Source: Akanthomyces muscarius (lineage: Eukaryota > Ascomycota > Sordariomycetes > Hypocreales > Cordycipitaceae). From it: 64,000 nucleotides of DNA. Below the pieces are notes generated by a model. That model had not been told where the DNA came from and made no database searches. It saw nothing but the letters and a program-made list of their open reading frames with translations. Made by a program: the position numbers and the translations under genes. The DNA is taken from contig NC_079243.1 in NCBI RefSeq assembly GCF_028009165.1, positions 5,070,025 to 5,134,024 of the forward strand, written 5' to 3'. Shown here in pieces: positions 26,059-64,000 of the stretch (positions within the stretch are counted from its first letter, which is position 1; each line of letters opens with the position of its first letter).

Positions 26059-26060
26059 TA

Positions 26061-28348: not shown

Positions 28349-28366
28349 TAACTATATTAAGTAAAA

Positions 28367-31959: not shown

Positions 31960-32780
31960 GCCGTAGGAAATTATTAGAGGGCGGTTTGGGGTCGGGTTAG
32001 ACAGTTAGATAGCAAATAGAAAAAAACTTGGCAGAAAAAAAAGTGAAGTGACTAGCAAGAGTAAGAGCAAGAGGTGGGAACAGCGAACGGGCGGTAAAGA
32101 TGCACGCTCTTAAAAGTTGATAGCTGACTGCAGCAGGCTGTAATGGACATTTTGGTCGGCTCTACGAAGATTTTAGACTGCAAATCAGTGGTATTCCGGA
32201 TTGCGCATGCCATCTTCCTGTTAACGTGCGGTAGGATGGAGCAGAAGCAGATCTGACTCGAGACGACGCAGATGTCAAGCTGCGATACGGCACGGGCCGC
32301 AGCGTTACACATCCCGGCTTCTGGCGAGCGCGTTTTCCCCACCGAGGGCAAGGCAGCCAATGCAGACCATGGAAATGGATGGTCGGTACCCCTGTCAAAG
32401 CCACAGTACCTCCCGTTGGTCGAAATGCTTGGTCGGACCCCTTGTCCATAGCTCAGCCTCGTGTGATTGTGACGGCCATGTGTAAACAAAGAAGAGATGA
32501 TCTGTTCAACTGCGACGCGTTATCACACTGCACCCGCTCGTTCTTTTTACGGCGAGTGCACAGGCGCAGAATAGGGGGTGGAAAGAGACAACAATGGCCA
32601 AGCGGTGGTGTCGTCGCACATTCTTTCCTGTCTGCGCCCGGGGGCACTACCCTAGATAAAAGGATGCGGTTGCAATAGGACCCAACACAGCCATCTCTAT
32701 CCTCTCTTGCTATAATAATAACCAAGTTGGAAAATAAAACGTGTATACAGGTACCCAACTACGTGACTTGAAGGATTGTC
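31960..32780. other. Intergenic region at the duplication edge, promoter of the large gene
   Basis: The duplication starts at 31973. The rest is an 800-bp leader before the 1643-aa gene. The 145-codon minus-strand frame here has no domain and overlaps other frames. Near 32655 there is GATAAAAGG, a weak TATA candidate about 125 bp before the start. Confidence 0.4.
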
Positions 32781-35700
32781 ATGACGCGGCGAAAAGTGAG
32801 TCTCACCTCCGAAGAGCAACAACTTCGGCGGGAATTGGAGAGACAGCGGTCATTCCGTCGACGACAAGCCGCTGCACAAGCAAGACGAGACCAAACCATT
32901 GCCGATGTGGCGCAAGAACCTGCCATCAGCATTATAAACACAGTCGATCATGCTGAAGAGCAGATCAGAGACAACGCGGCGTCAACACATGCCGGACAAG
33001 ACAATGTCCCAGACACCGACGATGGTCAACGGCAAGACCAACAAAGCCGTTCGAAGAACGAACTTCAAAAGTCATGCGAGACATATGGTCTTCATAGTGC
33101 TGCTTTGGGCCGCGTTGAAACAACTGACTTGACGAGGCAGAGTCCACCATGTCTGACAGCACCCGAGCAACGATACAACCTCCGTGAGCGCAAGAGCCCT
33201 ACGCCGAACGCCTTCCTCTCAGACCAAACAACGAAAGTCTCAAGAGAGCACGAGAAAACAACGGTGAAGAGCGCACCTGTTTGCCTTGCTCTACGGCCTG
33301 CTACTGGCAGTGTCTCTATCCCGGATAAGCGAGGTGAAGACGCTCCACCTACACTGTCGGCGACCAAAACATCTTCCTCCACCCGTCGAGTCCAGCAACA
33401 CAGGGCCAGGCAGCGCATTACGCGCTGGCAGGAGCACATCGACGAGGCAAACACACCCCAGAGTCAAGTGCGTATCCTGTCACCCGCTCCGATTGAACCG
33501 CCAGTCGAATCGACAAGTGCGACCTTCCCCACAGCGGCCGACCCGCCCGACCCGGGCGATGAGCACACTGCAGAGGAAGCTAATGGAGCGGACGCCACGC
33601 TTGTACGATCGGTGATTGTTGTGTCGACGGGCGAGACCTTTTTTGGTACCACCGCAGAGAATGACGAGGAAGAACGCGACCACCCGTCCGCCGCCGACGA
33701 GACGAAAAACGTGAACGAGACGGTCAGCGACTGCGCGGGTGAGCACCAAGACAACCATTCTGAGCCAGAATGCAGTGCGAGAGATGAGTCCGGCTTGTTT
33801 GTGTCGGATGAGAGTTGGGATCTCAGTGTGGAGGGGTATGTTGGGGACGATTCTACGCCGTGCGTCGAGACTTTGTCCTCTCCAGACGGACCTCAGCACG
33901 CACTACCCACTGAAGCTGGGTCAGCATCATCCGTTGCTCCCCATCCTCTTGATGAGATTGTTGCCGCCATTGAGTCGGCTGAGTCTACCGCCGGTCGTAC
34001 CTTTCTCTCACGTCAATCCGATGCCTACCTGCGCATATTCCAAGAGACGCTGTCTGGTCGCTGCGCTTGTATGTATCCTCTACATACCAACATATCTGCA
34101 GAGCTGACGGAGCATATAGGTCAAGAGCCCCATCAGCAGTCGCCTGATGTAGACCGGGACTGCTTTTCCATACAGGAAATGACACAGTGGATCCGAGATA
34201 GGCTCGAGCCTGCACTGGAACCGCAGCACGAGCGAACCGAGGGTCGACAATGGCAGTCACTTCTTGCCCAACCACCAGCATCGCTGTCGCTGTCCAAGTC
34301 GGAGTGCGACATCCGCATACACGACGTGCGCATCACGAGAGCATGGGATGTGGACAGTATTTGGCTCGGCCCCACAAGCCTCGCCGCCATCCGGCCTGAC
34401 AACAACTCATTCCGGCTCTCCTTCAACCCGCCCTATACGCGGTCCATCGCGGGGAATCAGATCATCGCGCCGCATGGCGTCGACCTGGGCCACACACGAC
34501 ACACGCTGCTCGGTTCGTTCGTCGCCGGCGGCATTCCTATGGACGTGTTTGTCTTTTTCCCCAACACCAACGATGGCAAGCCGGTAAAGCCACAGCGAGC
34601 ACGACAGCAACGTGCCGCCAAGTCTCCCTACACCCTGTCGCTCGCGCGCCAGGAGGAACTGGTGAACGGTGCTATCTTGCCAGCCGTCCAGTCCACGCTA
34701 CCGGCTTTGTTTCGACAAGAAATGCCTTCCACATTTGCCATCGCCAATGCCAAGTGCAAATCCTATCAGGAGAAACCAGCGACGGACCGCTGGTCGGCAG
34801 ACGACAGCTCTCGTGCCGCCCACTTACGCTACACCGTTCCAGGGCAGTACCTTGGCGAATTTTGGCAGGCCTTCCAGGCAAGATGCGCTCAAATCAGGAT
34901 TTCCGTCATAAACGGCGCATCTGCATTTGCCTACTTCCAGAACCCCAAACTGTTATTCCAGGTCCATGACACCAAGAACAGCTTTGCGCAGCCGACTCTT
35001 GGTCAGTCCTTGGACCTTTTTGTGAGCAATGTGATGCGCGCACTCAACCCGATGTTCCTCGACTTCCGGTCCTGCTGGTTGGATATCGGGCTCCGCGATC
35101 TGGCCACGGCGTCCACCACAGAGGGTCGGGACGAAGTCCCCGTCACACTTTTGTGGAAGAAACGATGTCTAGAGAAATTTCACGCTGATCTTCGAGACAT
35201 TTCGCTAGATATGGGGCTCCAGTCCGAGTACTTTCGCACGTACCACCTTCGTGATGCGGCTACCTACGACGCCAAAGTGCGAAGTGTGGCGGCGCGTGTG
35301 CCCCAACCAACCGACCCTGGCCACCCCAGCTGTCCAAAACTAGGTGTCGTCCATGCGAAGGCGTACAACTGTGATAAAGAACGATTCTCTGTCATTGCCA
35401 GTGATTACCGGCCTTTTGCCGCGCCTTCGCTTGCAGCCCTGGCACTGACAGACACCATGATGAAAGATGTTTTCACTGCGGGCCATGACCGTGCCAGCGC
35501 CATTACCGGGGCGCCACAGAGGCGGAAGCTGGTGGGGGCGTGGGAAGCCAATAAACGCCATCTTGATGCTGTAGCAGACCACGACGCGCCCACGAACGGG
35601 TACGCCGTCCGCAAAGAGATCACGTTTCGGCTTGACGCCATCCTCACGATGCTTCATGGTGGTAAGTTTAACCGAGGGGAGCAGGACGGGACTTTAGACC

Positions 35701-37799
35701 ACCAAACTGTAGGTGGTGCCTCTTGTACGTCCGTGGGAGATCTTGAGCATAAGCCTTTTTGGGTGTTGCCAACAGCAGACGTGAATGACTTTGTCTGCAC
35801 CATGGCGCGCCGGTTTGTCAAACCACTCGACTATATTTTCGCTAACAGCGGCGAGAAAGACGAGGCATCTTCCCATGCCAAGCGGAGCTCACGGTCACTC
35901 GTGTGCTTCTATACCGCCGAGCTTTTCCTGCGACTGCTCGTGTCGTCCTTAAATAGCGATAGGGACTACTTCGCCGACAAATGGATATGGGAGAACCAAT
36001 GGCAGTTGAAGCAGATCAAAGATGGACGGCGTGTCCAGTACACACGACGTGGACTCGGCCTACGCGAAACGGTCTGCGACTTAGGCCTTCTCTGGCTCAG
36101 ACTAGACCAGCTCGATTGGATGCACGGTCACCTGTCCATTCCGAAGCTGCTGCAATTGTACATACCTCGCAATCCTCTGCACCCGGAATGGGCAGCCCAG
36201 TCTAGTGTCCGGGCTTTTGCGTGTAGTAACGTGTCGGCTGCGTACATCATCGAAGACCTAATGCTCAAAGCAGCACATCTACGCGAACACGACCGAGCCA
36301 GCTTACACATAGCCATAACGGACGAAAAAACGGCGGTTCACATTGCAGCGCAGGAGGTGGCAAGAGAATACGGGCTCCACATGCTGAGCAAGCTGTTGCT
36401 GTATTGGCGTAAGGCATTGGAGGAATACGACCAAGTAAAGAACAGCCAAATACGGCGTAAGTATCCCAATGGACCAAACTCGCTCGCGACAGCTCTCGAG
36501 TCCATTCAAACTCCTACTGGGCGCATGGTCACCCCGCATACTATACTGGATATTCTGGACGAGGCGTGGGAGATTCGGCAGCTCGCAGGGACGCCGGACA
36601 GCACACCACACCTCCCTACGGGCCTACCAAACTGGATGGCAAAACGGGCTCCCAAAGAGCAGCTATGGAGCAGAAATGTGTTCGACACACTGTTCGAGAC
36701 GCCGAACAAAGTGACATGGGCCGGGAACGCGTTCCGGGTCTTCTACGAGCGACTACGCGATCTATACAACGCAGCGCGCCACCCGGACGCGGTCCCATTT
36801 GGCAACCTGTTTCGGGACACCATCGGTCGCTACATCACCGTCATGTTCAATCCAGACCGGACGAAAGAGATGAGCGTAAGCCACGGACGGAGCTGCTGCT
36901 ATAACCATCTGCCAACATTCTTTCGCATACAATTCTGGGCTCCCCTCATTAACCCATACCGGTACTTAGCGGACACGTTCGAGGTACGTAGATGGTCATG
37001 AGTAGATTCAGCATTATACTAAGACGCGAACGTCTAGATTAAAAAAACGGCTTTCCCTCTTTCACCGAAGTGGAAAAGAGCATATCAGGCGCTTCACTAT
37101 AGAAATGCAGAGCTCGTCCAAAGTTTCCGCGCGGTGCGCGGACTGTCCATAACAACAGGCTGGGTAGCTCGCCAACCATTGGATACGGTGGTGCGCCTGG
37201 CTGGTGATCTTCAAAGGTGCTTTGCATGTCTCTTGCGGGTGGCCGGACCTCGGCACTTGAGCTTGCCAGGGAGTCCACCATCTGGCTTCTGGAACTTCAA
37301 TGATCCGGATTCGATCGACCTTCAGCTGTGGGAGGTGCCGGTCGAGAGTGGTTCGCCGCATGGGGGGGCGACGCCGACCGTGATCCTGCCCACACTACCT
37401 GTCCTGAATTTTCTGCGGCACGCCAGCCGAGCTGCCGTTGGTGCCATGCCTCTGCTCACCGAACCGCCGTCTGCCCAAGCCCGTGGTGAGCTATGCCGTC
37501 TCCAAGAATTTGTTAACGTTATTGAGCAGCTCTTTGAGGACCCTTCAGGTAAACGGAGCCTGATTATCACCAAACTTAGACTCTTAGAAGAAATCAAGAG
37601 CATGCATAACGGGTCAGGTGATGATCGGCTACTTTTCGAATTTCTAGACCAAGCAGAAGCACCTCAGACGTATAGATATGTTGACGATAGGGCTCTACAC
37701 GAGGGTGACGAGAGCGCGGACGAAGACGAAGACATAGAGCGCAGCAGTGGGAACAGCACTGCCGGTGCTGAAAGCGACAATAGTGACGCAAGTCTATAG
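32781..37799 (+). CDS. Large uncharacterised protein, 1643 aa (copy 1)
   Basis: Exon 1 (32781-36983) and exon 2 (37071-37799) are joined across an 87-bp phase-0 intron (GTACGT donor, TACTAAG branch, GAAG acceptor). Splicing replaces a stop at 36999-37001 and links ADTFE to WKRAY. I do not recognise the family. The first 45 residues are highly basic and helix-prone (RRELERQRSFRRRQ). Residues about 50-390 look disordered and acidic with an RYNLRERK patch near 130. From about 440 to 1500 the chain looks folded, rich in Trp, Phe and Tyr. The tail is strongly acidic (DESADEDEDIERSSG). I see no signal peptide, membrane span, helicase, kinase or nuclease motif. The charge pattern suggests a nuclear or nucleic-acid-associated role, but that is a guess. 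It is duplicated intact at 53521. Confidence 0.85.
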
Positions 37800-39424
37800 A
37801 GCGAAGAACATACGATTTGCTAATACTACTTCCATGTACCGCTACTCCCGCGTGACAAGTTCATGAGGCGTCGCGACTACCGACGCGGCCGACGCGGCCG
37901 ACGCTGCCGCCGTGACCTCGCCCAGACCAGTCGACTAAGCTGATGTTGGAACCAACGAACCCTTACGTCGACGAGAGGCCGATATTGGTCGGGCTTTTGT
38001 TTAGTTGGTTAACTGACGCCCGATGGATGGCCTGTCCACTTGTCTAGCGAATCTGTATGTGGATTCCTCCCGCGAGATTTCCTCCTCGGCATCCTGGATC
38101 TGCTCTTTCGTCAAGGCATACCCATAGCTGACCATTTAAAATTCGCCGCTATCTAGGCGGTGAGCAAGGAAAATTGGCCAAACGGCCCTGGTAACCTGGT
38201 TCTTGTTTAGTTTGACGGGGACGTGATGTCGACAATGTCGCCGCCTGCTATTGCTTCGGTGTCCTCACTTGCGCCTTATTTGGCCGACCGTACTAGATTC
38301 AGACGCGGTCTTCCTCAACACAGGTGGGAGAGGCTGCCAGTCTTCTGGCACTTGCGTGTGAACTTGGCCTGACTTCCACTGTGGCCCCGGGTAGAGGCGG
38401 GATATCCTTCGCAGCGTGCAGCGAGCGATGTAAAGCAAGTCAACCATGGACTCTTAACTATTGTCTTCCTGCCAAGAGGTATCCGCCCACGGTAACACAT
38501 TTAATCGTAATATTCTTCCGTGTGGATCTAATTAGGAGGGTACGTGCGCAGGGAATGGCTCACTACTTGGACAGGGTTTCGAGTTACGAGTAGTAAGGCA
38601 GGCCGTGGTTTAGCATAAGCCTCAAGCATAGCAAATATCATGCCAACCATCGACTTGACAACGAAGTCCAGCTAAGACCCTTCATAGAGGGCCGCTTCCA
38701 ACGGGCACTCTATCACTACCAGTTGATTCGGAAAATTAAGAAAGAAAGGGAATCTAACAGCAAGCCGCTATATCCTCAAACAAGTGACAAATTAGCAGAG
38801 CGTAGATTGTGGATACGCGCATATAAAGTAGTAGTAGACCAGTCGCTCGTTGCGGCCTCACAACATGCCCTTGGGTGACATGCCATCGGAGCGGCGGACG
38901 GAGCTATGTTCGTTCAGCCCCATACGCTATAAATGGCGGCCTCCGCCAGGCTTGCTCCTCCTGGACGCCGCCATGGGTCCAAATCAGGCTGCGCAGCCTA
39001 GCGCACTCTGGCAACGGTCACACTTCACACAAATTCTGAGCCTTGGCGGCATTAGCGCCGCATTGGTGGCGCCAAGGTACACCAATAGCACAGATCACGA
39101 AGAAAGTCCTCGAAGTTCATCTCCATCCCAGCAGCCTTGCCACGATCCACCTCACCGTAGAGTACGCTCTAAAACCCCAGCCGGCCCAGTGTACGTGGCT
39201 TATACTACTACGCGAGCGACGACGGGGATAAAGAACCTGCAAGATGACCATAATAATCGACGATGGCGACGCCTTTCCGCTGCATAAAGCCACCGCGCGA
39301 AATATAGTCATGCATGCTCCGTCAGCATGGTACTTTTTCCTGCGTAAGTACACAGATCAGGTTAGTGAAATGGTTCATAGCTGTCAACATACGATTAGAG
39401 GCCAACAGTATCGTGAAAGCTAGG
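37800..39424. other. Long intergenic stretch, possible remnants
   Basis: Short GCGGCCGACGC repeats occur at about 37884-37900. A plus-strand frame of about 95 codons without a start (near 38605-38872) reads like protein (RALYHYQLIRKIKKERESN, then ERRLWIRAYKVVVDQSL) and may be a fragment. A short frame at about 39244-39420 (GDAFPLHKATARN) faintly resembles the start of a BTB domain. Neither can be called a gene. Confidence 0.4.
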
Positions 39425-39432
39425 TATAAATA
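39425..39432 (+). promoter_or_regulatory. TATA box of the putative secreted-protein gene (copy 1)
   Basis: A perfect TATAAATA lies 102 bp upstream of the start codon at 39534. Confidence 0.55.
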
Positions 39433-39533
39433 CTCGCCGCGCTGACCTAGAGACGAGGAATCCCTTATGCTTCTCTTTCATATCAGCAGCGTAATAGCAT
39501 TTCTCCTACCGAACGCTCCTGTTTGGTCTTAAA

Positions 39534-40955
39534 ATGCGTGGTTTTCTCGTCCTTCTTGGACTTAGCTCCGTCGTATGTGGCTCTGTTGCAGAACCACGCC
39601 ACAGCGACTCTTACAGCGAATGCTATGCAGACAGAGGGTGCGTTATTTTCAAGCGTCTAGCAGATACAAAATCGGTTATGCAAACTTACAAGCGACAGTC
39701 TGGAGCAGAAGGATCTCAATGAAGCCGGTCGATTCTTGGAGGAGAACCTGGCCGCTACCCCAGCGGGACTGCCCATGGCCATGAATGAATGCGCGTACAA
39801 GCGCCATAACACCACCATCATGTCCATCTGCAACGGCAGCGCGCGTAACCGCACTATTACCCAGGGTGAGGTGAAGCGTGGCATCGCCCAGCTATTCAAG
39901 GACTGCAACAAGCTTGGGACGTTCACAGGTGTGCACGTGGTCAACAACCTCACCTTTGCCGCGTACGGGATCTTTGCCGGCATCAACATCAAGCCACCTG
40001 GCGGCAAGAACCCACCTGACACGCCAGGCTCGGTGAGAAAACGCGGCAGAGGAAGCTGGCTCGAGTTTGTGGGCGACAGCCCTCTCGGTGCCCGGGCCGA
40101 CGAGACCGCAACAGATTGCCCGGTCAGCTTTTTTGGAAAGTCGCGCACCGATTGTCCCAGGCCCGAGGGCATCACGCTAAACGAAGACGGATCCTGCGGT
40201 CCGATTCGGCCCAACATGAACTCGTGCCAGACCTTCTGCGAGCAGAAACGTACCGGCCTGCTTGGACCAGAGACACGGGCACCTGGCGAGGCCGGAGAGT
40301 CGCAGCCGCCAGGCCAGGCACTGGCCTTGACCAAGGGCAAAGAGACGTCTATCAGCCAAGGCTTCTCCGCCGGTCTCGAAGGTGTGGTCAAGGAAGTGTT
40401 CGGAGCAGGTGTTACATATGAGTGTCAGTCTGCCTTTCTCCCCTATCGAATCATGATGAGGGCTTCATACTAACTATCAGCGTATAGGGAGCCATGGTTC
40501 CGCTAAAATGGAGTCCATCGAGCGCACAGCTGATCCAGCGGCCGACCCAGAGATGTGGACGCGATGGGTCTTCTTCCCAAAACTGATCGAAAGCTGTGGC
40601 ACCATCTCCAAGAAGAAGTCAGAACTGCAGATTGTCGGAAAAGGCGGAAGCGTGCCGGCTTGCAAGGGCGATGTCGAAACTCTCACAGACAAGTGCAGCA
40701 TTTCGCCCTACCTCGTCGACGGCGAGGCTTCTGCTCTGTGGGCACTGCGTACGTTCCGTTTTCTTGTCCTTGTTTATTCTTCATGCTCTTTTCTATACGC
40801 TCATACTAACAATACTAGGGTACGAGTGGCAAGATGGAGTGATGAAGCCAATGGATCAGCAACATCCGAGCTACAAGTCTATTTGCAACACTCCGGACCC
40901 GGACGGTGATGGAGAGGACGAGTGTATTGGGGGCGTTCCTCCAGCGCCCGAGTAA
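39534..40955 (+). CDS. Putative secreted Cys-containing protein, 4 exons (copy 1)
   Basis: Proposed exons are 39534-39572, 39661-40423, 40488-40748 and 40819-40955 (399 aa). Introns 2 and 3 are strong: each has a TACTAAC branch site and AG, and the joins give TYEWSHGS and LRYEWQDG. Intron 1 uses a perfect GTATGT donor but leaves a short hydrophobic leader (MRGFLVLLGLSSV). Unspliced, the same start reads as a better signal peptide (LSSVVCGSVAEP) but stops after 62 codons. The 5' end is therefore uncertain. The body has about a dozen Cys, several N-glycosylation sites (NTT, NGS, NRT, NLT) and a TSISQGFSAGLEG...AGVTYEWS stretch like the beta-rich cores of some secreted fungal proteins. No family is assigned. 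An identical copy is at 60274. Confidence 0.7.
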
Positions 40956-41598
40956 CTCTGCTTTAGTCGAGGGCCATCAAGAGACTGCCTGGCTTCGCCA
41001 GTGTGAAGTCTGGTCTATCTGGCTAGAGAGGTAAGCTTGACATTTCAGGCAAGTGGGTTTAGGCAAATGGGCGTAGTGGCTTACAATAAAGTCTGGACGA
41101 CCATCAGCTAGCGCCGATTAGGGTAGAACCAACCAATTTGTTTGCATTATGTGCGAGCACTATGATATTTTATTGGCGGCGTGCATGACGCGTGACGTGC
41201 CAGTCTCCATGAAAGACTTGGCGGCGTACCTTGGTCTATAAGGCTGCTGCCTTGGAGACGCCGGTACTTGTCCCTTTTCTGAAGACGGCGTGAAGTATTG
41301 TTGTTTCTTGCCTGTGGAAAAAGAGGAAGCGTGGATTGCTGAGCTGGTGTCACGCCATGCAGGCGCAGAATCTCGGTGCATCGTGAATAAATCTCACCCC
41401 AAAATGGGTCACAGGAAGATGTCATGAAGAAGAAGTGAGGAGTATGATAGAAGACTTATTCTACCGGGAAGTAATAGTGGTTTTAGAATGTGTATGTAGT
41501 ATTACTTCCTAGTCTAGACAGGGCAGCTCGTAGTCGTTGTACAGGGCCGCTACGAGCGGGCTCCGTCAACGACCTAACTATGATGGATCCACTTTCAT
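40956..41598. other. Intergenic region between convergent genes
   Basis: Two overlapping minus-strand frames of 73 and 92 codons lie at 41147-41425, with no domain or splice support. This is the shared 3' flank of the secreted-protein gene and the GPI-like gene. Confidence 0.45.
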
Positions 41599-42239
41599 TT
41601 ATACCATGTAAGCCACGAGAGCCACCACGAGCGAAAACACCACGCCCCGTGATTTTGTAGTCCGGAAGCTCGCGCCCTGGCCCTCCGCCTCTCGGCCTTT
41701 CTTCACCAGGCCATAGTCAACCCATTCACACCTACTGTCGACGGTTATGGGCGTCGAATTCTTCGCCCCTGATTGCACCGCAGCCTTGGCACAATCCTCC
41801 CAGCCTTCCGCGAGCGTCTGGTTTGACGTAGCACAGTATTTCGATATGCAATTATACTCTGTGTAGTATCTGTTTGCTATGCCTTGCGTGGTGTCAGGAT
41901 CCAAGGGGCAGCAGGGCCGGAGCAACTCCCACTCATCCCCAGCACCTAGTGGATAGGGGCTAGCATCGGAGCTTTCCTTCGCAGAAAACGTGGCTCGGCA
42001 CAATATGGGCAAGTGATACTCTTCAGGTAGACGCCCGCAAGCGACTCTGTCAAACACCCATGACTGTTGGATCTGCCGAGCGTCAGCTCTACGCCGTCGG
42101 CCGGATGACAGCCAATTGAACTTACCGCAAGAGGATCACCGAGTGTGAAGTTGAGAATCTTTCCCATGTCGTATCGCGTGGCGGTGATGGGAAGAAAGAG
42201 GAAAAGGCTCGGGGCTCGGCGTCCAGACTTTATTTTCAT
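41599..42239 (-). CDS. Putative Cys-rich, GPI-anchored surface protein (copy 1)
   Basis: Two exons (42126-42239 and 41599-42072) are joined by a 53-bp intron with a GTAAGT donor, a GCTGACG branch site and a GCAG acceptor, giving 195 aa. The N-terminus (basic KIKSGRR, then SLFLFLPITA) resembles a signal peptide. The middle has about ten Cys (LLRPCCPLD, YNCISKYCATS, WEDCAKAA), suggesting disulphides. The C-terminus ends in a hydrophobic stretch (GVVFSLVVALVAYMV) after a polar spacer, as in GPI-anchor signals. No family is recognised. Translation could instead begin at the internal Met (MGKILNF), which would remove the leader. It is convergent with the secreted-protein gene and divergent from the SET gene. 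Confidence 0.65.
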
Positions 42240-42693
42240 GCCACACTCGCTCTGCTTCCAAACTCCAATGGACAACCCTGGTCAGACCTGGCACCACACG
42301 CCCCGCCCTGTATATGACTGTATAGGCCCATCGGGAAATGAGCAGGCCATCGATCGTCTCGGCTTCACGAGGCTATGACAAGAACAACAGTCACGCGCCA
42401 CCAGCGTAGCAAAAGCGCATGCTACCACGGAAAAAATCAGGCTGCAGGGCTACCTAAGCCCTGTACGCCACTAGGACAAGCTTAAGCTAAGCTTCCATAC
42501 AAGTCTGCATTAGCGCTCAACGGCGTGGTGGGGTAGGCCACCGGCGCCACCGTAAGATGAAGCCGTGTCAAGGTGGCTCGTATGGCGGTCCGGACGGACG
42601 ATACAGTCCTTTCCGATGTCTCCTCCCTTCCGACCGTACCATGAAAAGAGCGTCAACGTACGCTCGTGCGCGGATGCATTTCGTCTGCCAGAC
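42240..42693. other. Divergent intergenic region
   Basis: This lies between the GPI-like gene (minus) and the SET gene (plus). It is about 450 bp with no strong TATA box and presumably holds both promoters. Confidence 0.4.
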
Positions 42694-43700
42694 ATGAAGC
42701 TCTCGGGACTGCTGCCTTCTTTGCTGCTGCTCACAGATCAGGTACGTGATTGTACAGCGTGCTTGTGGGCGCCACGGCTTCTGTCGGCCGGATGGCCCTA
42801 TGCGCGGCAAGCCGAGGGGACCAATTGCCCAGCGCCGGGCGTGCTGCGACGTCTAACACTAGGGCGAAAGGCGCTACCGGCCAGGTTGCAAAAGTCCTTA
42901 GGCTCTTTTCATCTATATTCTTCGCACGAGTTTGGAAGTCACGGCGGCATAGGCGTACTGGGAACAGCCGACCAGGCCGACTACCTTGGACGACTAGCGG
43001 CGTTTTATGAAGAAGATGCTTTTTCCACGCAAAACACGGAAGAGGCCGGCTTGCTCGACGTGGTCAACACTCCCGGCCGGGGCCGCGGTCTGATCGCTAC
43101 GCGGACGCTGCAGCGCGGAGATGTAGTCATGGCTCGTCGGCCGGTGCTGCTGCTTGACTTGGACGTGTACACAGACCTGGACAGGGCGCAGTGGGTGGAG
43201 GTTCACCACGAGGCGGTCGCCGCACTGCCTCTACGAACGCGCTCCATGTTTTGGCAGCTAGACGGTGCTGGGCAAGTCGACGCCTTGACGGATCGGATTC
43301 GAACCAACGCGTTTGCGGTGATGGTCGGGGACAAGGCATACCACGCCGTTTTCCCGGATATTTCAGTACGTGGCGCACCACACTGACAGGCTAGCGCGAG
43401 ATCTAGCACCACTCAGACGCTGACCTATGGAAGATGCTGAACCACGACTGCGGGCCCAACGCTGCATATCATTTCGATGTGGCTTCCCTTACGCAATATG
43501 TGACGGCTACGACGACGATTTTCGCCGGGACAGAAATCACAATATCGTATCTGCAGCCCGCGATGGCCCTCCAATCACGCCGCCAGCATTTACGCTCGTT
43601 GTGGGGGTTTCACTGTTCGTGCAGCAAATGCGAAGCAGAAGAAGGCGCCGAGTTGCAAGCAGTTGCCCCAGCCAAAGAGGAGTTTTCAGCGGATGGTTGA
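42694..43700 (+). CDS. SET-domain protein with a signal-like N-terminus (copy 1)
   Basis: Exons are 42694-42741, 42817-43365 and 43434-43700 (287 aa). Intron 2 (68 bp, GTACGT donor, GCTGAC branch) is certain in effect because it joins FPDIS to MLNHDCGPNA. Intron 1 (75 bp) is frame-neutral; it removes 25 codons and joins MKLSGLLPSLLLLTDQ to GTNCPAPG. SET motifs in order are GRGRGLIATR, then the core NHDCGPNAAYHF, then GTEITISYL, with a post-SET-like WGFHCSCSKC. SET proteins transfer methyl groups from S-adenosylmethionine to lysine. The leader would send this one to the secretory pathway, unlike chromatin SET enzymes. The protein ends soon after the Cys cluster, so it is short compared with SMYD/SET5 relatives. 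The start could lie further upstream in the same frame (42565). Confidence 0.8.
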
Positions 43701-44590
43701 TTTAAAAGAAAAGGGTTTTTAAAAAACATCGATTGTGTGATATAGAGCCGCACCGCTGAGCTGGCATCTAGACCAAAGCTGTTGCCAAGCTGTGATTCTC
43801 TGAGTATTGTGTCCAGTTCAGGGTATGGCCAGGCATAGGGCGCAAAGCTGCGCTGCGAATAATCTACAGGATCGCAATGCGGATGAGCCAAAGGTTCGTA
43901 CTACAAACAAAAGCATGGTGGATATAGGGAAGGCCACTACATTCAAGAGCTCAAATGGGATTCTTCAATAGACCCTCTACAATACTCTGTACAACGCCTC
44001 CAACCCAACTGCCTAAGTATCTTGTCCCAAAAGAAAATCAAGCGAAGCTGCTTTGAGCCGAATCTGATCGGGAGGACGGCGCCAGGCAGCGGGCCTGGCT
44101 CGTTACGGCCCGGGTATGGATTAGCGATGAAAAAAAAACATGGCGAGAGCAAATATTCAAACCACGCGGCATGGCGCAGCGAGGCGCTTCGTATTATGCC
44201 AACCAATAAGCAGATCGTAACTGTATAAGTGCTGCAGGGTAGGGTTCGGTGTAGCAGTTAATGAGTTGATGAAAACTAGTTGGTGAAGTAGGACAGTCTT
44301 CACGAAAGACTCATAATGCACGGACTAAGAGTATATTCTAGTAGCCTGTTCTGCTCAGCTCTTTTTCCTTTTCTTCTTTTCTTCCCCCCCCTTTTTTTTT
44401 GGGTTTCCAGTTCTTTGTCTCAGTCCCGGTCCCTCTCTTTTTTTTGCCTGTTTAGTTTTTCTCGTTAACTAAACTCTACCATTTTTTTTTAGTTACTCCT
44501 TTCGTTGCTGCTGTCCTGTTCCTCTTCCTTTCCCGCCCCTACCCGCCCCTCCTTCCCTTTCTCCCTCAGCCTCACCCTCACCCGAGCCGT
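43701..44590. other. Intergenic DNA with a pyrimidine tract
   Basis: No supported gene is present. A long C/T-rich run with C8 and T10 tracts occupies about 44360-44580. This starts the transition to subtelomere-like sequence. Confidence 0.5.
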
Positions 44591-44599
44591 AACGCCAAC

Positions 44600-45000
44600 A
44601 CCAACACCAACCATAACCCTTCCACTTAGGGTTAGGGCGCTGCGAGACAAAGTGCGTGCAGCAGGGTGAAGGGGAAGACGGAGGATTGTTTTGACCCTCT
44701 CTTCGTAACCCCTCGCTGAAACAGTCTAGACACTAACCATCCGACCCTCTTACGTCTCTTCCTTCCTTTCTTCCTTCCGGTGGACAGCGTGCGAGGAGAG
44801 TCTTTCGCTCTCTGTCCTTCTTCCTCGGTGACAGAGCTTAGGGCACTGGAGGCGGGACCAGTACATCTTCGCTGGAACGGGAAGCGCGTGTTTTTGGAGC
44901 TACAAGTTGAAGCAGAGACCTAGTCACTACTCTCAACGGACAACCCTAACAGAACCCTAACCCTGGCGTACCCTAACACCAACCCTGAGTGTAAGTTATG
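44600..45000. repeat. Interstitial telomere-like motifs
   Basis: Short CCCTAA/TTAGGG-like units are scattered here: ATAACCCTT and TTAGGGTTAGGG near 44620-44640, then ACCCTAAC units and CCCTAACCCT near 44942-44990, mixed with CCAACAC repeats. They occur in both orientations. They are too few and degenerate for a functional telomere but consistent with subtelomeric or formerly terminal DNA. Confidence 0.6.
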
Positions 45001-45389
45001 CCTAGAGTAGGGTCAAGGGTTGTGTAGAGGACTGGTCCTAAGAGTGTCAGTGCCTACGCCTGTCTTCGCAACTCGTTGCCGAGAGCGCCCTCCCCCTTCA
45101 CTTCCGCCCTCCCACCCTTTCGCTTCTCTTTCCTTTCTTGTGGGTGGACAAGGTGTGAGGCAAGCCTTTTGCTGCTTTTTTCCTTAGCAGACGGCTTCTT
45201 CACACAGGAGGTTGGAGTACGGCTGGTGCAACGTGCGGGGCTTGTGCTTCTGGAGCTGGAGCTGTAGTGAGCCTGTTTACGTCTCTACTACTTTACGTCT
45301 GTGCCTCTTTACCTCTTTCCCTCTTCAGCTTTTTAGCTCTTTACCTTTTCTACTTTCTTGCCTTTTAGCCTTTTAGCCTCTTAACCTCT

Positions 45390-45545
45390 GAAAGTGTAGT
45401 TTGTGTTGAAGTTGAAGTTGAAGTGTAGTTTGTGTTAAAAGTGAAGTTGAAGTTGAAGTGTAGTTTGTGTAGAAAGTGAAGTGAGGTTGAGAAGTTAGTG
45501 TTAGGTTGAAGTTGAAGTTGAAGTTGAAGTTGTGGTTGAAGTATA
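45390..45545 (+). repeat. TTGAAG-type minisatellite
   Basis: Repeats of GAAGTTGAAG and GTGTAGTTTGTGTT alternate over about 155 bp. They look like a low-complexity subtelomeric array. Confidence 0.75.
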
Positions 45546-45742
45546 AATTTTTGGAGGGTGGGGGTAGTGGTTAGGGTTAGAAACTGTAAATTGAGTTATC
45601 TAAGCTAGCTCGCTCGGGAATTTTCTAATAATACATTTAGAGAAAGTAATAGTAAGGAAAGAAAGTAAAGAGGAGAGTGTCCTAAGAAAGAGAGTATAGG
45701 GTAGGTAGTATAGGGTGGGTGGTATAGGGTAGGTGGAGGGGG

Positions 45743-45957
45743 GGTGCTAGAATATGTGTTCTAGCTATAGAAGGTGCTAGGACGTGGGTTCTAGCTGATA
45801 GAGGTGCTAGAGCGCGTGTTCTGGCTGCTAGAGGCGCTAGAGTGTGTGTTCTAGCTGCTAGAAGGTGCTAGAGCGTGTGTTCTAGCTGCTTAGAAGGCGC
45901 TAGAGTGTGTGTTCTAGCTGCTAGAAGGTGCTAGAATGTGTGTTCTAGCTGGTAGAG
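45743..45957 (-). repeat. 30-bp minisatellite in the retrotransposon 3' region
   Basis: Seven units of about 30-31 bp follow the pattern GGTGCTAGAGTGTGTGTTCT + AGCTGCTAGAA (plus strand). They lie between the retrotransposon stop codon and its 3' end. Confidence 0.85.
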
Positions 45958-46005
45958 GGTGTTACTATAGGTGTTATAGTGGGTAGAGGGGCGTTATAGT
46001 GGCTC

Positions 46006-48855: not shown

Positions 48856-49014
48856 TATCGTCCTAGACGCTCTTCCTAAGAAACCGGCTTCTAGAAGGTG
48901 TGTAGCCTTCTTTTCGGCGGTAGAGAAGGACGTGTCTTCTCGTATAGGGTAGGTAGGGACCTCTAGGGTATCTAGGTTGTCTGGATAGTCCTTTAAGAGC
49001 CTAGGGAGGTTTCC

Positions 49015-50010
49015 CTACTCTAACCCGAGCCCTAGGATCCTAGGGAGTAGTAGGAAGTGTAGGAGGGTTGTTTCCGAAGGCCTAGCGACGAATTTTACAG
49101 CAAGCCGGTTCGCTACTAGATGGAAGATCCGGGCAGGCCTAGGTCGGAGCTTATAGGTCGGTATAGGTACCTTCATAAAGCGTTGTAGCTGCTGTATAGC
49201 TGTTTTGGCGAGTATAGGTGCTAGAGTAGCCGTGTGGGCCTCCTGGGCGCTCGGGGAGGATATGTATAGGGTAGGTCTTTGTGCTGGGGTGGGTGGTTCG
49301 AACCAGGCAGCGGCCTGGGATGTGTTGATAGAGCTGTGGAGGCCTGCTAGCCTCTCTGGGGCTCGGATTGTCTCTTCCTGGCTGCTAGGGGCGTCCTTTG
49401 CAGGTGGGACGGGTCTTCTAGCAGGTCTAGGACCCTCTGAAGGTCCTGATAGGCGTCTTTTTGTGCCTATTTGGACCTGGATAGCCTGGGAAGGCGCTGG
49501 AACGTCGTCTTCGGAGGCGAAAGGGTCGCTAGAGGGCGCTGGAGAGTCTTCCACAGGTACGGAGGAGACCTGGGAGGCTGGCGTACAGCTTCCAGCGTCT
49601 CCTAGCTCGATAGAGGGTGCCAGGGAGTCTTCTAGGCTGTCGTAGAGGCCTTCTGAGGGGGTTGGAGAGGGTTCCGGGTCCTGTATAGAGCCTTCTAGGT
49701 GTACTAGGAGGTCTATAGGGAGGGTCGAGTCGTTGGAGGGCGTTGGGGAGGGCTCTTTGACTTGTATAGGCTGTGTGTGTACCCGTGGAAGTGTAGAGAC
49801 CTGGGAGGTTCCTTTAACGCCGTGGACCTTGGCTCTGTGGGTTGCCACGCCGTGGCGGCCACGGCAGGCTGTGCCACAGTCCGGGCAGCTAACAAGGCCT
49901 GTAATTTGCAACTGACGGTCCGTATAGTGGGCTTGGGGGTGGTTTTTGCGTATATGGTCGAGCAAGTCAGCGTACCAGCCTTTACAGGTCGGGCACCTGT
50001 CCTTTGCCAT
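49015..50010 (-). CDS. Non-LTR retrotransposon: N-terminal zinc-finger part
   Basis: From the Met at 50010 (MAKDRCPTC) this part has 331 codons before the TAG at 49015-49017. Two C2H2 fingers are visible: C6, C9, H19, H24 and C42, C45, H58, H63. They are followed by a long Ser/Pro-rich acidic linker (PSPTPS repeats). N-terminal C2H2 fingers bind target DNA in R2-like elements. The open frame extends upstream to 50280, but that part is translated minisatellite (HTPEAASSL repeats), so the internal Met is the better start. After the TAG the same frame continues without a break into the reverse transcriptase ORF. The native product was probably one polyprotein of about 1334 residues. Confidence 0.75.
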   Translation of the reverse strand: MAKDRCPTCKGWYADLLDHIRKNHPQAHYTDRQLQITGLVSCPDCGTACRGRHGVATHRAKVHGVKGTSQVSTLPRVHTQPIQVKEPSPTPSNDSTLPIDLLVHLEGSIQDPEPSPTPSEGLYDSLEDSLAPSIELGDAGSCTPASQVSSVPVEDSPAPSSDPFASEDDVPAPSQAIQVQIGTKRRLSGPSEGPRPARRPVPPAKDAPSSQEETIRAPERLAGLHSSINTSQAAAWFEPPTPAQRPTLYISSPSAQEAHTATLAPILAKTAIQQLQRFMKVPIPTYKLRPRPARIFHLVANRLAVKFVARPSETTLLHFLLLPRILGLGLE

Positions 50011-50069
50011 CGTAGCGGCCTTGGGCCAGTGCTGGAGGCTGCTGGCGGCTATGGGCGTGTGCCAGAAGG

Positions 50070-50300
50070 CTGCTAGCGGCTTCGGGCGTGTGCCGGAAGG
50101 CTGCTGGCGGCTTCGGGCGTGTGCTGGCGTGTGCCGGAAGGCTGCTGGAGGCTTCAGGCGTGTGCTGGCGTGTGCTGGCGTGTGCCAACGTGTGCCGACG
50201 TGTGCTGGAAGGCTGCTAGCGGCTTCGGGCGTGTGCCGGAAGGCTGCTGGCGGCTCCGGGCGTGTGCTGGCGTGTGCCAACGTGTGCCGACGTGTGTTAT
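50070..50300 (-). repeat. Minisatellite at the 5' end of the retrotransposon
   Basis: Imperfect units built from CTTCGGGCGTGTGCC + GGAAGGCTGCTGGCGG (plus strand) and GTGTGCTGGC run through the region just upstream of the zinc-finger Met. Confidence 0.8.
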
Positions 50301-50316
50301 GGACGCCTTAGCGCTA

Positions 50317-51230
50317 CTATTATAGGTACTAGTACTAGAAAGAGGCCGCTAAAGACACTTCTAAGACCTGTTATAGTGGATAGAGCTATAAGAGGTGCTA
50401 GAAGGCTTCTAGAGGGCTATTTATAGTGGTAGTTACTATAGAAAGCAGGAAAAGGTATAAAAAAAAACACAGCCTTTCTTATAAGAAAAGGATTTCTACT
50501 AGAAGGGACTTCTAAAGTGTACTTCTAGTAAAAAGAGAACCCTTTTAGCTACTAAAAGTACTAGGTACTTCTTTATAGCTAGAAAGGCTAAGATAGGACA
50601 GTATACTAGTAAAAGGCACTTATAAAGTGTATTTTAAAAAGTAGGTAAGAGAGAGGCCACCTACTAGAAAAACCAAGATTCTTCTAGTAGAAAGAGGTAT
50701 ATACTAGAGGGTACTTCTAAAGTGTGCCTCTACTGGATAAATCTACTAGAAAGGACTTCTAAAGTGTACTTCTAGTAGATAGATAGGACGTCTATAAAGA
50801 TACTAGGTATCCTTTATAGAGAGATAGGACATCTAGTAGAAAATACTAAGTATCTTCTAGTAGAGAAAGGTATCTAAAGAGAATAAAAGTATTCTCTAAT
50901 AGAAAGGACCTTATAATAAGGTAAAGGTAGGTAAGTAAAAGTAAAGAGGTAAAAAGGATAGAGAGTAAAGAGTAGGAAGTAAAGGGTAGAGAGTAAAGAG
51001 TAGAGAAGTGCTTAGTAAAAAAGGGAAGATATGTTTTCTTTAAGAAGAAAGAGGGTAAGTAGAAAGACTACTTAGAAGAGGTAGAAAAACAAAGAAAAGA
51101 AGAAGTGTGTGTGTAAGGGAGAGAAGGAAGGAAGAAAGAGGGAAAGAAAGGTATTATATAGCTAGAAAGGCCTCGGAAAGACTCTAACAGGTCTTCTAGG
51201 GTGAATCTAGGCCCTTCTAAGTCTCACAAG
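50317..51230. other. Repetitive subtelomere-like DNA, no gene
   Basis: Repeated phrases such as CTTCTAAAGTGTACTTCTAG (about 50500-50780) and AGAGTAAAGAGTAG (about 50950-51010) are present. It may include the 5' untranslated region of the retrotransposon. No frame is supported. Confidence 0.5.
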
Positions 51231-51248
51231 GCAATTTCACAGCCTTTA

Positions 51249-51490
51249 CACTCTTCCCGGCCTATTTTCAGCTCTCTACAGGGCTCTCCATGTCTCCCAG
51301 GGCTACCCACGTAACTAGACCCCTGTTTCCAGCGCCCTAGGACCCCTACCTGTCTCGGAAGGCAACTAGCACTCTTCCCGGCCTGTTTTCAGCTCTCTAC
51401 AGGGCTCTCCATGTCGTACAGGGCTACCCACGTAGTTCGACCCCTGTTTCTAGCGCCTATAGGACCCCTACCTGTCTTAGAAGGTAACTA
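51249..51490 (+). repeat. 121-bp tandem repeat, two copies
   Basis: Units begin CACTCTTCCCGGCCT at 51249 and 51370. A third, decayed start occurs at 51492 (CACTCTTTTAGG). Differences are mostly C/T transitions, and the third unit passes into AT-rich DNA. Confidence 0.85.
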
Positions 51491-51499
51491 ACACTCTTT

Positions 51500-52066
51500 T
51501 AGGGTTATTTTTAGCTATCTATATTACTTTTCTATTTACTATTTCTATTTCTTTTTTAAATTAAACTAGTTTTTTATTTTATTTTTTTATTCCCTTACCC
51601 TATACTAAAAGTACCTTTCTATTCTACCTTATTCTATATACTAGTAAATATAAAAAGGACTTTTTCTATAAAATAAGCCTTATCTTATTATACTATTTAG
51701 TTACTTTCTATTATTTTTCATAGTAGTTCTTTTTTTCTATTTAAGATACTATATAATTTAAAGATTTTTAGTATTTATCTTTATATTATAGTCTCTTTAT
51801 TAATAGAGAAATAAAAGAGATCCTTTTACTACTTTACTATATTCTATATAACTAGACTCTATATTTACTTTACTATTATATTCTAGTATAAAACCCTATT
51901 TTACTTATATTCTAGTTCTTTTTAGTAGAGTACTATACTATTATTAAACCTTTTTACTCTATCTTACACTTTATAGTTCTTTCTTTTCTTCTTACTACTA
52001 TATCTTATTTTATATAAGACCCTACCCTATACTTTACACTACTTTCTTCTATATATTATAGAAGCC
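51500..52066. other. AT-rich, T/C-biased DNA
   Basis: This is low-complexity DNA with many TTTCTA and CTATAT runs, lying between the tandem repeat and the telomere-like array. No gene is present. Confidence 0.5.
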
Positions 52067-52074
52067 ACTTTACG

Positions 52075-52712
52075 TCTAACCCTACCCTAAACCCTATACT
52101 ACCTTTAACGTCCCTTAAAGAAGCCACCCTATATCTAACCCTAACCTAGACCCTAAGCTACTTTTTCTATTCCTTATAGAAGTAACCCTAAGTCCAACCC
52201 TAACCTAGACCCTAAGCTATATTTTTAAGATCCTTCTAAAAGCAACCCTAACCTAGACCTAAACCTAGACCCTACCCTATTATTTTAAGTTCCTTATAGA
52301 AGAAACCCTAACCTAAACCCAAACCTAGACCCTACATTTAAAAGTACTATAAAGGACTTATATTTTCGCGCTAGCGGAAATAATTCGCGTTAAAAGACAC
52401 GTTTAAACCCTAACCTAGACCTAAACCTAGACCCTAAGCTACTTTTTACATTCCCTATAGAAGAAACCCTAACCTAAACCCAAACCTAAACCCTAAGCTA
52501 CTTTTTACGTTCCTTATAGAAGAGACCCTAACCTAAACCCAAACCTAGACCCTACATTTAAAAGTACTATAAAGGACTTATATTTTCGCGCTAGCGGAAA
52601 TAATTCGCGTTAAAAGACACGTTCAAACCCTAACCTAGACCTAAACCTAGACCCTAAGCTATGTTTTCAAGTTCCCTATAGAAGAAGCCCTAACCTAAAC
52701 CTAAACCTAGAC
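52075..52712 (+). repeat. Degenerate CCCTAA-type telomere-like array adjoining duplication copy 2
   Basis: Dozens of CCCTAACCTAGACCCTAAG and ACCTAAACC variants, spaced by TTCCTTATAGAAG phrases, run to the exact start of copy 2 at 52713. The C-rich strand reads left to right, as at a left chromosome end. A block of about 110 bp containing CGCGCTAGCGG occurs twice (52331-52440 and 52551-52660) with a 220-bp period. Confidence 0.8.
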
Positions 52713-53520
52713 ATTAGAGGGCGGTTTGGGGTCGGGTTAGACAGTTAGATAGCAAATAGAAAAAAACTTGGCAGAAAAAAAAGTGAAGTGACTAGCAAGA
52801 GTAAGAGCAAGAGGTGGGAACAGCGAACGGGCGGTAAAGATGCACGCTCTTAAAAGTTGATAGCTGACTGCAGCAGGCTGTAATGGACATTTTGGTCGGC
52901 TCTACGAAGATTTTAGACTGCAAATCAGTGGTATTCCGGATTGCGCATGCCATCTTCCTGTTAACGTGCGGTAGGATGGAGCAGAAGCAGATCTGACTCG
53001 AGACGACGCAGATGTCAAGCTGCGATACGGCACGGGCCGCAGCGTTACACATCCCGGCTTCTGGCGAGCGCGTTTTCCCCACCGAGGGCAAGGCAGCCAA
53101 TGCAGACCATGGAAATGGATGGTCGGTACCCCTGTCAAAGCCACAGTACCTCCCGTTGGTCGAAATGCTTGGTCGGACCCCTTGTCCATAGCTCAGCCTC
53201 GTGTGATTGTGACGGCCATGTGTAAACAAAGAAGAGATGATCTGTTCAACTGCGACGCGTTATCACACTGCACCCGCTCGTTCTTTTTACGGCGAGTGCA
53301 CAGGCGCAGAATAGGGGGTGGAAAGAGACAACAATGGCCAAGCGGTGGTGTCGTCGCACATTCTTTCCTGTCTGCGCCCGGGGGCACTACCCTAGATAAA
53401 AGGATGCGGTTGCAATAGGACCCAACACAGCCATCTCTATCCTCTCTTGCTATAATAATAACCAAGTTGGAAAATAAAACGTGTATACAGGTACCCAACT
53501 ACGTGACTTGAAGGATTGTC

Positions 53521-61695: not shown

Positions 61696-62338
61696 CTCTG
61701 CTTTAGTCGAGGGCCATCAAGAGACTGCCTGGCTTCGCCAGTGTGAAGTCTGGTCTATCTGGCTAGAGAGGTAAGCTTGACATTTCAGGCAAGTGGGTTT
61801 AGGCAAATGGGCGTAGTGGCTTACAATAAAGTCTGGACGACCATCAGCTAGCGCCGATTAGGGTAGAACCAACCAATTTGTTTGCATTATGTGCGAGCAC
61901 TATGATATTTTATTGGCGGCGTGCATGACGCGTGACGTGCCAGTCTCCATGAAAGACTTGGCGGCGTACCTTGGTCTATAAGGCTGCTGCCTTGGAGACG
62001 CCGGTACTTGTCCCTTTTCTGAAGACGGCGTGAAGTATTGTTGTTTCTTGCCTGTGGAAAAAGAGGAAGCGTGGATTGCTGAGCTGGTGTCACGCCATGC
62101 AGGCGCAGAATCTCGGTGCATCGTGAATAAATCTCACCCCAAAATGGGTCACAGGAAGATGTCATGAAGAAGAAGTGAGGAGTATGATAGAAGACTTATT
62201 CTACCGGGAAGTAATAGTGGTTTTAGAATGTGTATGTAGTATTACTTCCTAGTCTAGACAGGGCAGCTCGTAGTCGTTGTACAGGGCCGCTACGAGCGGG
62301 CTCCGTCAACGACCTAACTATGATGGATCCACTTTCAT

Positions 62339-62979: not shown

Positions 62980-63433
62980 GCCACACTCGCTCTGCTTCCA
63001 AACTCCAATGGACAACCCTGGTCAGACCTGGCACCACACGCCCCGCCCTGTATATGACTGTATAGGCCCATCGGGAAATGAGCAGGCCATCGATCGTCTC
63101 GGCTTCACGAGGCTATGACAAGAACAACAGTCACGCGCCACCAGCGTAGCAAAAGCGCATGCTACCACGGAAAAAATCAGGCTGCAGGGCTACCTAAGCC
63201 CTGTACGCCACTAGGACAAGCTTAAGCTAAGCTTCCATACAAGTCTGCATTAGCGCTCAACGGCGTGGTGGGGTAGGCCACCGGCGCCACCGTAAGATGA
63301 AGCCGTGTCAAGGTGGCTCGTATGGCGGTCCGGACGGACGATACAGTCCTTTCCGATGTCTCCTCCCTTCCGACCGTACCATGAAAAGAGCGTCAACGTA
63401 CGCTCGTGCGCGGATGCATTTCGTCTGCCAGAC

Positions 63434-64000
63434 ATGAAGCTCTCGGGACTGCTGCCTTCTTTGCTGCTGCTCACAGATCAGGTACGTGATTGTACAGCGT
63501 GCTTGTGGGCGCCACGGCTTCTGTCGGCCGGATGGCCCTATGCGCGGCAAGCCGAGGGGACCAATTGCCCAGCGCCGGGCGTGCTGCGACGTCTAACACT
63601 AGGGCGAAAGGCGCTACCGGCCAGGTTGCAAAAGTCCTTAGGCTCTTTTCATCTATATTCTTCGCACGAGTTTGGAAGTCACGGCGGCATAGGCGTACTG
63701 GGAACAGCCGACCAGGCCGACTACCTTGGACGACTAGCGGCGTTTTATGAAGAAGATGCTTTTTCCACGCAAAACACGGAAGAGGCCGGCTTGCTCGACG
63801 TGGTCAACACTCCCGGCCGGGGCCGCGGTCTGATCGCTACGCGGACGCTGCAGCGCGGAGATGTAGTCATGGCTCGTCGGCCGGTGCTGCTGCTTGACTT
63901 GGACGTGTACACAGACCTGGACAGGGCGCAGTGGGTGGAGGTTCACCACGAGGCGGTCGCCGCACTGCCTCTACGAACGCGCTCCATGTTTTGGCAGCTA
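63434..64000 (+). CDS. SET-domain protein (copy 2, cut by the window end)
   Basis: This is identical to the gene at 42694 up to the window edge. Exon 1 is 63434-63481, and exon 2 runs from 63557 to the last base. The part carrying NHDCGPN and the Cys cluster lies outside, so whether this copy is complete cannot be judged here. Confidence 0.75.
   Translation, partial: MKLSGLLPSLLLLTDQVRDCTACLWAPRLLSAGWPYARQAEGTNCPAPGVLRRLTLGRKALPARLQKSLGSFHLYSSHEFGSHGGIGVLGTADQADYLGRLAAFYEEDAFSTQNTEEAGLLDVVNTPGRGRGLIATRTLQRGDVVMARRPVLLLDLDVYTDLDRAQWVEVHHEAVAALPLRTRSMFWQL

Follow-up and report, generated by a model that had tools for sequence, protein, structure and literature searches.

Identical repeat units at many contig ends of Akanthomyces muscarius, and a probable recent loss of repeat-induced point mutation

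Introduction

How can an exact duplication of at least 11.3 kb stand intact beside repeats that have been heavily mutated by repeat-induced point mutation (RIP)? This question is raised by one end of contig NC_079243.1 (here C3) of Akanthomyces muscarius. The window, i.e. the whole stretch of 64,000 bp that was analysed, is C3:5070025-5134024, and its end is the end of the contig (5,134,024 bp). The initial annotation described an unmutated direct duplication next to transposons mutated to near-pure TA, and offered as explanations a duplication younger than the last meiosis, a loss of RIP or of sex, or an assembly error. Here, we describe the duplication as part of an array of a 20.7-kb unit that lies at many contig ends, and we propose that RIP was probably lost recently, and that chromosome-end arrays then spread by telomere-linked recombination. 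The analysis covers one assembly (36.2 Mb, 24 contig ends), in which C1 to C12 are contigs and the suffixes L and R denote left and right contig ends.

Results

The duplication is one period of a chromosome-end array

Direct comparison of positions 31973-43260 with 52713-64000 found 11,288 of 11,288 positions equal. The two copies match everywhere, as annotated, and aligning them for single-nucleotide differences, a check that had been suggested, gave 0 mismatches. The left limit of identity is exactly 31973/52713 (extension 0) and the right limit is set by the window end. Since this is also the end of C3, it is the assembly that truncates the second copy, and the duplication is indeed at least 11.3 kb long. 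Its repeat period is in fact 20,740 bp (31973 to 52713), with units head to tail. Each unit consists of a 13.6-kb module, K, followed by a 7.1-kb module, R:

31973..52712, plus strand: unit 1, complete K+R, read proximal to distal; 20,740-bp period, with 100% copies at other contig ends
52713..64000, plus strand: unit 2, initial 11,288 bp, identical to unit 1 and cut by the contig end
31973..45580, plus strand: K module, 13,608 bp, with a fixed proximal end ATTAGAGGGCGG (ATTAGGGGGCGG in the B type described below), terminating in a short TTAGGGTTAG tract
45569..45580, plus strand: interstitial telomeric tract GGTTAGGGTTAG, which adjoins R on the proximal side
45581..52712, minus strand: R module, 7,132 bp, a telomere-inserted non-long-terminal-repeat (non-LTR) retrotransposon, 3ʹ end proximal, at AAACTGTAAATTG
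52712..52713, no strand: head-to-tail junction of the R distal end and the first base of K, also found at C2L and C2R

A simple two-copy duplication is ruled out by the 16 genome matches of a 1,001-bp piece of the unit (12 at 100%, three at 99% and one at 73%) and by starts at many contig ends. Hence, the annotated direct duplication stands as an identical direct repeat, but it belongs to a chromosome-end array that is both tandem and dispersed. The first 500 bp of the unit have at least 19 genome matches; among the matches listed, 12 are at 100% (A type), three starts are at 97% (B type; C7L, C8R and C9L), and four starts, at 72-79%, are older K copies. The A-type starts, at least 12, are distributed over 10 of the 24 contig ends (C1L, C2L with two, C2R, C3L, C3R with two, C4L, C5L, C5R, C6L and C11L). 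The remaining 14 ends include the three of B type, C6R and C10R with a telomere plus R or the distal part of R, and C1R and C4R, which terminate in arrays of a gypsy element described below; C7R, C8L, C9R, C10L, C11R, C12L and C12R resemble ordinary contig breaks in the outermost 1 or 10 kb. (CCCTAA)n was found at only five contig ends (C6R, C7L, C8R, C9L and C10R).

A-type copies are almost free of differences. In alignments totalling ~136 kb (overlaps counted, the window counted twice, and the outer 10 kb of C5R, with 113 mismatches, left out), eight aligned bases differ from the window unit: a two-base change common to C5L and C11L, two in C1L, one in C2L, and one in the R without a K (solo R) at C2R. 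One of the two C1L differences is also present in C5R. The comparison spans the whole length of C3L and of the inner C2L unit, and mostly part of the length of the other A copies.

Older copies of the same elements are RIPped

Two AT-rich stretches of the window, at 2-11 kb and at 23-30 kb, have 14.6-31% G+C per kb, TA/AT of 1.5-1.9 and (CA+TG)/(AC+GT) of 0.06-0.19 (2-kb bins wholly inside). These RIP indices agree with the annotated mutation of nearby transposons, although “near-pure TA” overstates their composition.

23001..30000, no strand: RIPped AT-rich DNA just proximal of the unit; 2001-11000 is similar

K itself has been subject to RIP. Over 5,093 bp that align without a gap, an old copy on C4 differs by 1,343 substitutions, of which 1,319 are C>T or G>A, with 655 at CpA and 588 at CpG. 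In other old K copies (stretches >150 bp), C>T and G>A account for 240 of 252 substitutions on C5, 67 of 74 on C8, and 50 of 60 in a second C5 copy. The distance of RIPped K copies from the contig end is 25-26 kb on C5 and 38-43 kb on C4. By contrast, the A and B types, which diverge by ~0.5-3% where their K modules are shared and by more in R, differ without a RIP bias: 140 of 514 differences are C>T or G>A, with overlapping alignments counted. At 46 positions where A and B differ, the old C4 copy carries the B base 27 times, the A base 16 times and neither of them 3 times. Some of the agreements with B may be RIP itself, and we conclude no more than that the three lines are of roughly similar age.

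For a Ty3/gypsy element, identified with Pfam, a 1,201-bp stretch is 100% identical at 10 places; an eleventh, partial copy is likewise at 100%, and seven older places are at 67-82%. Three of the older places, partly examined, are RIPped (170 of 179, 156 of 196 and 176 of 199 substitutions are C>T or G>A). Nine young copies form tandem arrays with a 6,299-bp period at C1R and C4R, and two are internal (C4:334853 and C7:429724). Two element families are thus each present as RIP-destroyed old copies and pristine young ones. The proposal of a duplication younger than the last RIP is therefore supported, since older copies of the same family are RIPped.

The gypsy arrays (C1:7422657-7450776 and C4:4835910-4856708) have long gag and pol frames and reach the contig ends; the array at C1R lies distal to an R element.

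Genes for the RIP methyltransferases appear to carry premature stops

Judged from the assembled sequence, premature stops appear to be present in the genes of both enzymes on which RIP normally depends. The PF00145 profile identifies two genes in the genome. The first (C3:2361401-2363800), which we take to be RID-like from its size and motif, has two in-frame TAG codons in the catalytic domain, and similarity to DNMT1 continues across both with no gap at the stop. The second, DIM-2-like gene (C2:4639401-4643000) has one in-frame TAA in the catalytic domain, where the alignment is ungapped; its best PDB matches are 9baq and 9bap (E 1.5e-135), presumably Neurospora DIM-2. A simple search for introns (GT..AG, 42-160 nt in length, a multiple of three, with a branch-site motif) found none that removes any of the three stops, and neither gene is RIPped overall.

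As a control, four of five DNA_pol_B matches have no stops, and the fifth (52 residues in a 94-codon frame) has two. The frame of the MAT1-1-1 match is open apart from two stops, which we take to fall in the conserved alpha-box intron, so that the suggested loss of sex finds no support in the one gene tested. In TERT, three long frames, RBD matches included, contain no interrupting stop, with no gene model built.

In Neurospora, RIP of newly introduced repeats is reported to depend on RID alone, and that of genomic heterochromatic repeats to require DIM-2 as well (PMC11969663). Given these requirements, loss of both RID and DIM-2 would leave neither RIP route. Of the explanations offered initially, a loss of RIP thus has direct support, both from the in-frame stops in the RID-like and DIM-2-like genes and from an unrelated second transposon that is pristine and multicopy.

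R resembles telomeric retrotransposons

R starts at window position 45581, directly after GGGTTAG. Its 3ʹ end abuts telomeric repeats in all six junctions examined (C1R, C2R, C10R, the old C4L unit, the inner C8R unit and the A unit), and likewise in the B unit. R copies at C1R, C2R and C10R have no adjacent proximal K. Within the window, R contains the following:

46006..48855, minus strand: R open reading frame (ORF), reverse transcriptase (RT; RVT_1, 4.9e-14) and restriction-like endonuclease (RLE) part, the latter from a motif search
49015..50280, minus strand: R ORF, N-terminal part, in frame with the RT part and terminated by an in-frame stop
52056..52712, no strand: 59/60-bp repeats of degenerate telomere-like sequence, at the 5ʹ (distal) end of R

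The R frame, 1,361 aa in the B type, is split by an in-frame stop in the A type. It carries the reverse transcriptase domain RVT_1 (PF00078), a zinc-finger motif (minus-strand frame; pattern matched in the B frame) and, in both A and B, the endonuclease motif C-X2-C..H-X3-C-X9-RH(D/N)..E..(R/K)PD-X12-(D/E), for which spacers down to 15 were allowed; the RHN-to-E spacer is 18 by eye, one below the quoted 19-33. R has 25 relatives at E<=0.001 among 7,990 scored, the named ones from the ascomycetes Fusarium, Rhynchosporium and Cladobotryum, and its RT part has 19 genome matches, 17 of them at 99-100%. These features suggest that R is a MoTeR/FoTeR-like telomeric retrotransposon.

At C5R, the stretches examined are A type up to unit position 17,568, followed by 113 mismatches in 3.2 kb. 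Since this switch lies inside R, and not at the K/R border, recombination within R has occurred. Furthermore, the stop in the A-type R frame favours recombination over self-driven retrotransposition in the latest spread. At C4L, a pristine R (C4:28628-30190; RT 100%) sits on a RIPped K: this R was added after RIP of K, or was converted, or is RIP-resistant.

R (45581-52712) is also poor in CpA/TpG, with TG at 0.03 of expectation at 51500-52712, and its RT frame is largely open. The depletion looks as if R had been shaped by past RIP.

K starts at one base beside many flanks

K begins at the same base in 14 of 14 junctions examined, out of 15 pristine starts, with 13 distinct flanks. The only repeated flank is that shared by the C3R tandem and C2R, and the fifteenth start (outer C2L unit) has this same tandem junction. 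TTAGGG or GGGTTA is present within the last 24 bp of the flank in six of the 14, compared with 0.36% of 24-mers in the window at 11-22 kb. In total, six flanks are telomeric, one is a variant repeat ((CCGGGT)n, at C4L), five are non-telomeric and two are R's own end. The non-telomeric flanks are broken pieces of R (C5L, C6L and C7L), AT-rich DNA (C3L) and a genic stretch (C3R). No inverted repeats of the first 26 bp of the unit were found at its other end.

The tandem R/K junction occurs at three contig ends of the assembly, with a full inner unit at C3R and C2L and a solo R at C2R. C4L has a head-to-tail pair in which the inner unit is old and RIPped. Both there and at C5L, a pristine unit lies distal to an older RIPped unit, which argues for outward growth in layers.

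Truncated internal K copies were considered as proof of target-primed insertion and dropped: C8:666880 continues beyond the BLAST end after an indel (by eye, no gapped alignment), and C5:56315 is equivocal. The flank of the first unit in the window contains an ORF that probably represents a gene cut short at what was once a chromosome end:

31384..31959, minus strand: Rua1_C-like ORF, its ATG 14 bp from the unit

Discussion

A recent loss of RIP followed by telomere-linked recombination

We consider it probable that RIP was lost recently, and that arrays at chromosome ends then spread by telomere-linked recombination. RIP would have been active until shortly before its loss. Recombination would afterwards have lengthened eroded or broken chromosome ends by copying K+R between ends and around in tandem, in the manner of telomere attrition-induced replication (TAIR) or rolling-circle copying, as in Pyricularia. 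Transposition of R into telomeric repeats would have left interstitial telomere tracts able to seed this copying, and, without RIP, K+R copies would remain identical. Recombination between ends is indicated because the units are layered, shared and switched. Should the stops prove real, the genome would represent a natural case in which both RIP methyltransferases are lost, and would itself record the states before and after. The proposed scenario, if true, would permit the loss of RIP to be dated against the spread of the elements, and RIP's normal restraint of chromosome-end arrays and telomeric retrotransposons to be tested.

Several points weigh against this explanation. The stops and the tandem copies rest on one assembly. 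The order of events, RIP loss and then spread, is one that we infer, and it is undated; the stops of both genes could be old, in a lineage that retains older RIP marks. A general failure of telomeres has no visible cause, the TERT frames being free of stops, and the five contig ends listed above retain (CCCTAA)n. R is pristine on the RIPped C4 unit, so R and K have different histories. Finally, the exact first base of K also occurs at the five non-telomeric flanks (C3R, C3L, C5L, C6L and C7L), and is therefore unexplained there by recombination through telomeric tracts. The TAIR model leaves this unaccounted for; an R-driven RNA route or a function of K would explain it.

Alternative explanations

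Could RIP be functional? The units would then have spread in mitotic growth since the last sexual cycle, with RIP due at the next, and the stops would be sequencing errors or would leave enough activity. The RIPped older copies of two transposon families are consistent with this, as is the open MAT1-1-1, and the near-identity of copies would mean very recent spread. Nonetheless, three in-frame stops in two methyltransferases, against none in four of five DNA polymerase matches, and the lack of RIP bias in the A/B differences make functional RIP unlikely, though it is the alternative that fares best.

A second alternative concerns the mode of spread. K+R may itself retrotranspose: an RNA in the sense of R would read through K to unit position 1 and be reverse-transcribed by the enzyme of R onto telomeric or broken ends. 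K and R do have the same orientation, at telomeric flanks mostly in the same target phase (GGGTTAG, then the element), and K meets non-telomeric DNA at an identical base at C3R, C5L, C6L and C7L. However, an RNA of 20-31 kb would be required, K has genes of its own that run in the opposite direction, a stop interrupts the A-type R frame, and the switch inside R at C5R is a mark of recombination. We regard this route as doubtful, a shade more so than functional RIP. Just as tentative is a further reading, in which the K end is defined enzymatically and K+R forms a giant chromosome-end element (20.7-31 kb) able to join telomeric repeat as well as broken DNA. Such an element, long restrained by RIP, freed by joint loss of RID and DIM-2 and now at most chromosome ends, would be a fungal counterpart of rotifer terminons.

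An assembly error, as suggested initially, still has to be weighed: the tandem second copy would arise if each end had just one unit and the assembler had gone round it in a circle. Near-identical units lie at many ends, and the outer copies break off at arbitrary positions (11,288 at C3R, 9,741 at C2L and 7,581 at C2R). Moreover, five contig ends (C1L, C3L, C5L, C6L and C5R) stop at unit position 20,738, and no A-type end has an assembled telomere. On the other hand, the junction is found at three ends with different inner structures, the head-to-tail pair at C4L has an old RIPped inner unit, C5L with C11L, C1L and C2L have private differences at a few sites, and the 6.3-kb gypsy element is also in tandem, at C1R and C4R. 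An artefact is thus an improbable explanation, weaker than the two modes of spread just discussed. Lastly, exemption of chromosome ends from RIP, which would fit the location of all 15 pristine K starts near contig ends, is contradicted by the strongly RIPped K copies near the ends of C5 and C4 and by the pristine internal gypsy copies, and we consider it highly implausible.

Comparison with known systems

Long gene-bearing repeats are found at many chromosome ends in yeast, as the Y' arrays of telomerase survivors, and in rotifers, as terminons, which are giant terminal blocks bearing a Penelope RT. Unlike in Y' survivors, there is no evidence of telomerase loss here, and, unlike in terminons, the RT is of R2/RLE type. 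Close to R is FoTeR, a telomeric non-LTR element of Fusarium oxysporum: R shares with it RVT_1, CCHC and (R/K)PD endonuclease motifs, tandem repeats, telomeric repeats at the 3ʹ junction, a location at chromosome ends and, in the B type, a RecQ-type helicase alongside (PMC12857005). Decayed, RIPped copies of FoTeR are reported there too. In contrast to FoTeR, R is 7.1 kb and lies within a 20.7-kb (A) or 31-kb (B) block that is repeated across ends, in tandem for A (PMC12857005).

In Pyricularia, chromosome ends that have lost their protection invade interstitial telomere tracts, from which they are extended by outward copying, in some cases around a circle (PMC7367193, PMC8381367). MoTeR arrays and TAIR resemble the arrays described here in tandem amplification at ends, in identical junctions shared between ends and possibly in interstitial tracts as seeds; they differ in that our unit is larger and has several other ORFs, no telomerase fault is seen, and spread coincides with broken RIP methyltransferase genes (PMC7367193, PMC8381367). 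Recent loss of a fungal cytosine methyltransferase with changed repeat evolution is also described for dim2 of Zymoseptoria tritici, where the gene was reportedly lost by amplification and RIP; here, stops occur in RID-like and DIM-2-like genes that are not RIPped overall (PMC8016269). In the open-licence literature, mostly titles and the openings of abstracts, we found no report of the combination described here.

The K protein and the contents of the B type

The protein encoded by K gives few clues to its function.

32781..37001, plus strand: K protein, 1,406-aa ORF; residues 480-1406 are conserved in Hypocreales

The whole ORF matched no Pfam family at E<=0.001, and residues 480-1406 (predicted fold, predicted local distance difference test score 74) no fold at the same threshold. 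A recombinase was therefore rejected as an identity for the K protein. Similarly, neither Pfam nor fold searches found a Starship/Crypton-like tyrosine recombinase captain near the fixed end of K, although a very divergent one could escape. Among 7,992 sequences scored, 57 are related to residues 480-1406, the named ones presumably all Hypocreales (ascomycetes), and a search seeded from the first 500 residues alone found zero relatives.

B-type K, seen at C7L only, additionally contains OrsD-like ORFs and a RecQ-type helicase, and the block is 31 kb, compared with 20.7 kb in A. In place of the OrsD-like/helicase part, the A type has ~7 kb in which three ORFs tested matched no Pfam family; no helicase was found among the tested ORFs of the A block.

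The helicase region of the B type has an unusual composition. At C7 ~7,906-15,466, the helicase sense strand has one CT in 7.56 kb, with ~251 expected, and AG is normal. The CT-poor stretch was seen at C7L, and its overlapping first 2 kb also at C9L. It spans the RecQ helicase frames and 3.5 kb of noncoding DNA, and ends at the first CT inside R; the 978-aa helicase frame has no CTN, GCT, ACT, TCT or CCT codons. On the R-sense strand, the stretch has almost no AG, the 3ʹ splice dinucleotide. An old, RIPped helicase fragment on C5 has no CT depletion (34 CT, 23 expected).

The left end of C10 and the right end of C11 have 1,412 identical bases in common, so that the two contigs probably belong to a single chromosome, interrupted close to a stretch reading N.

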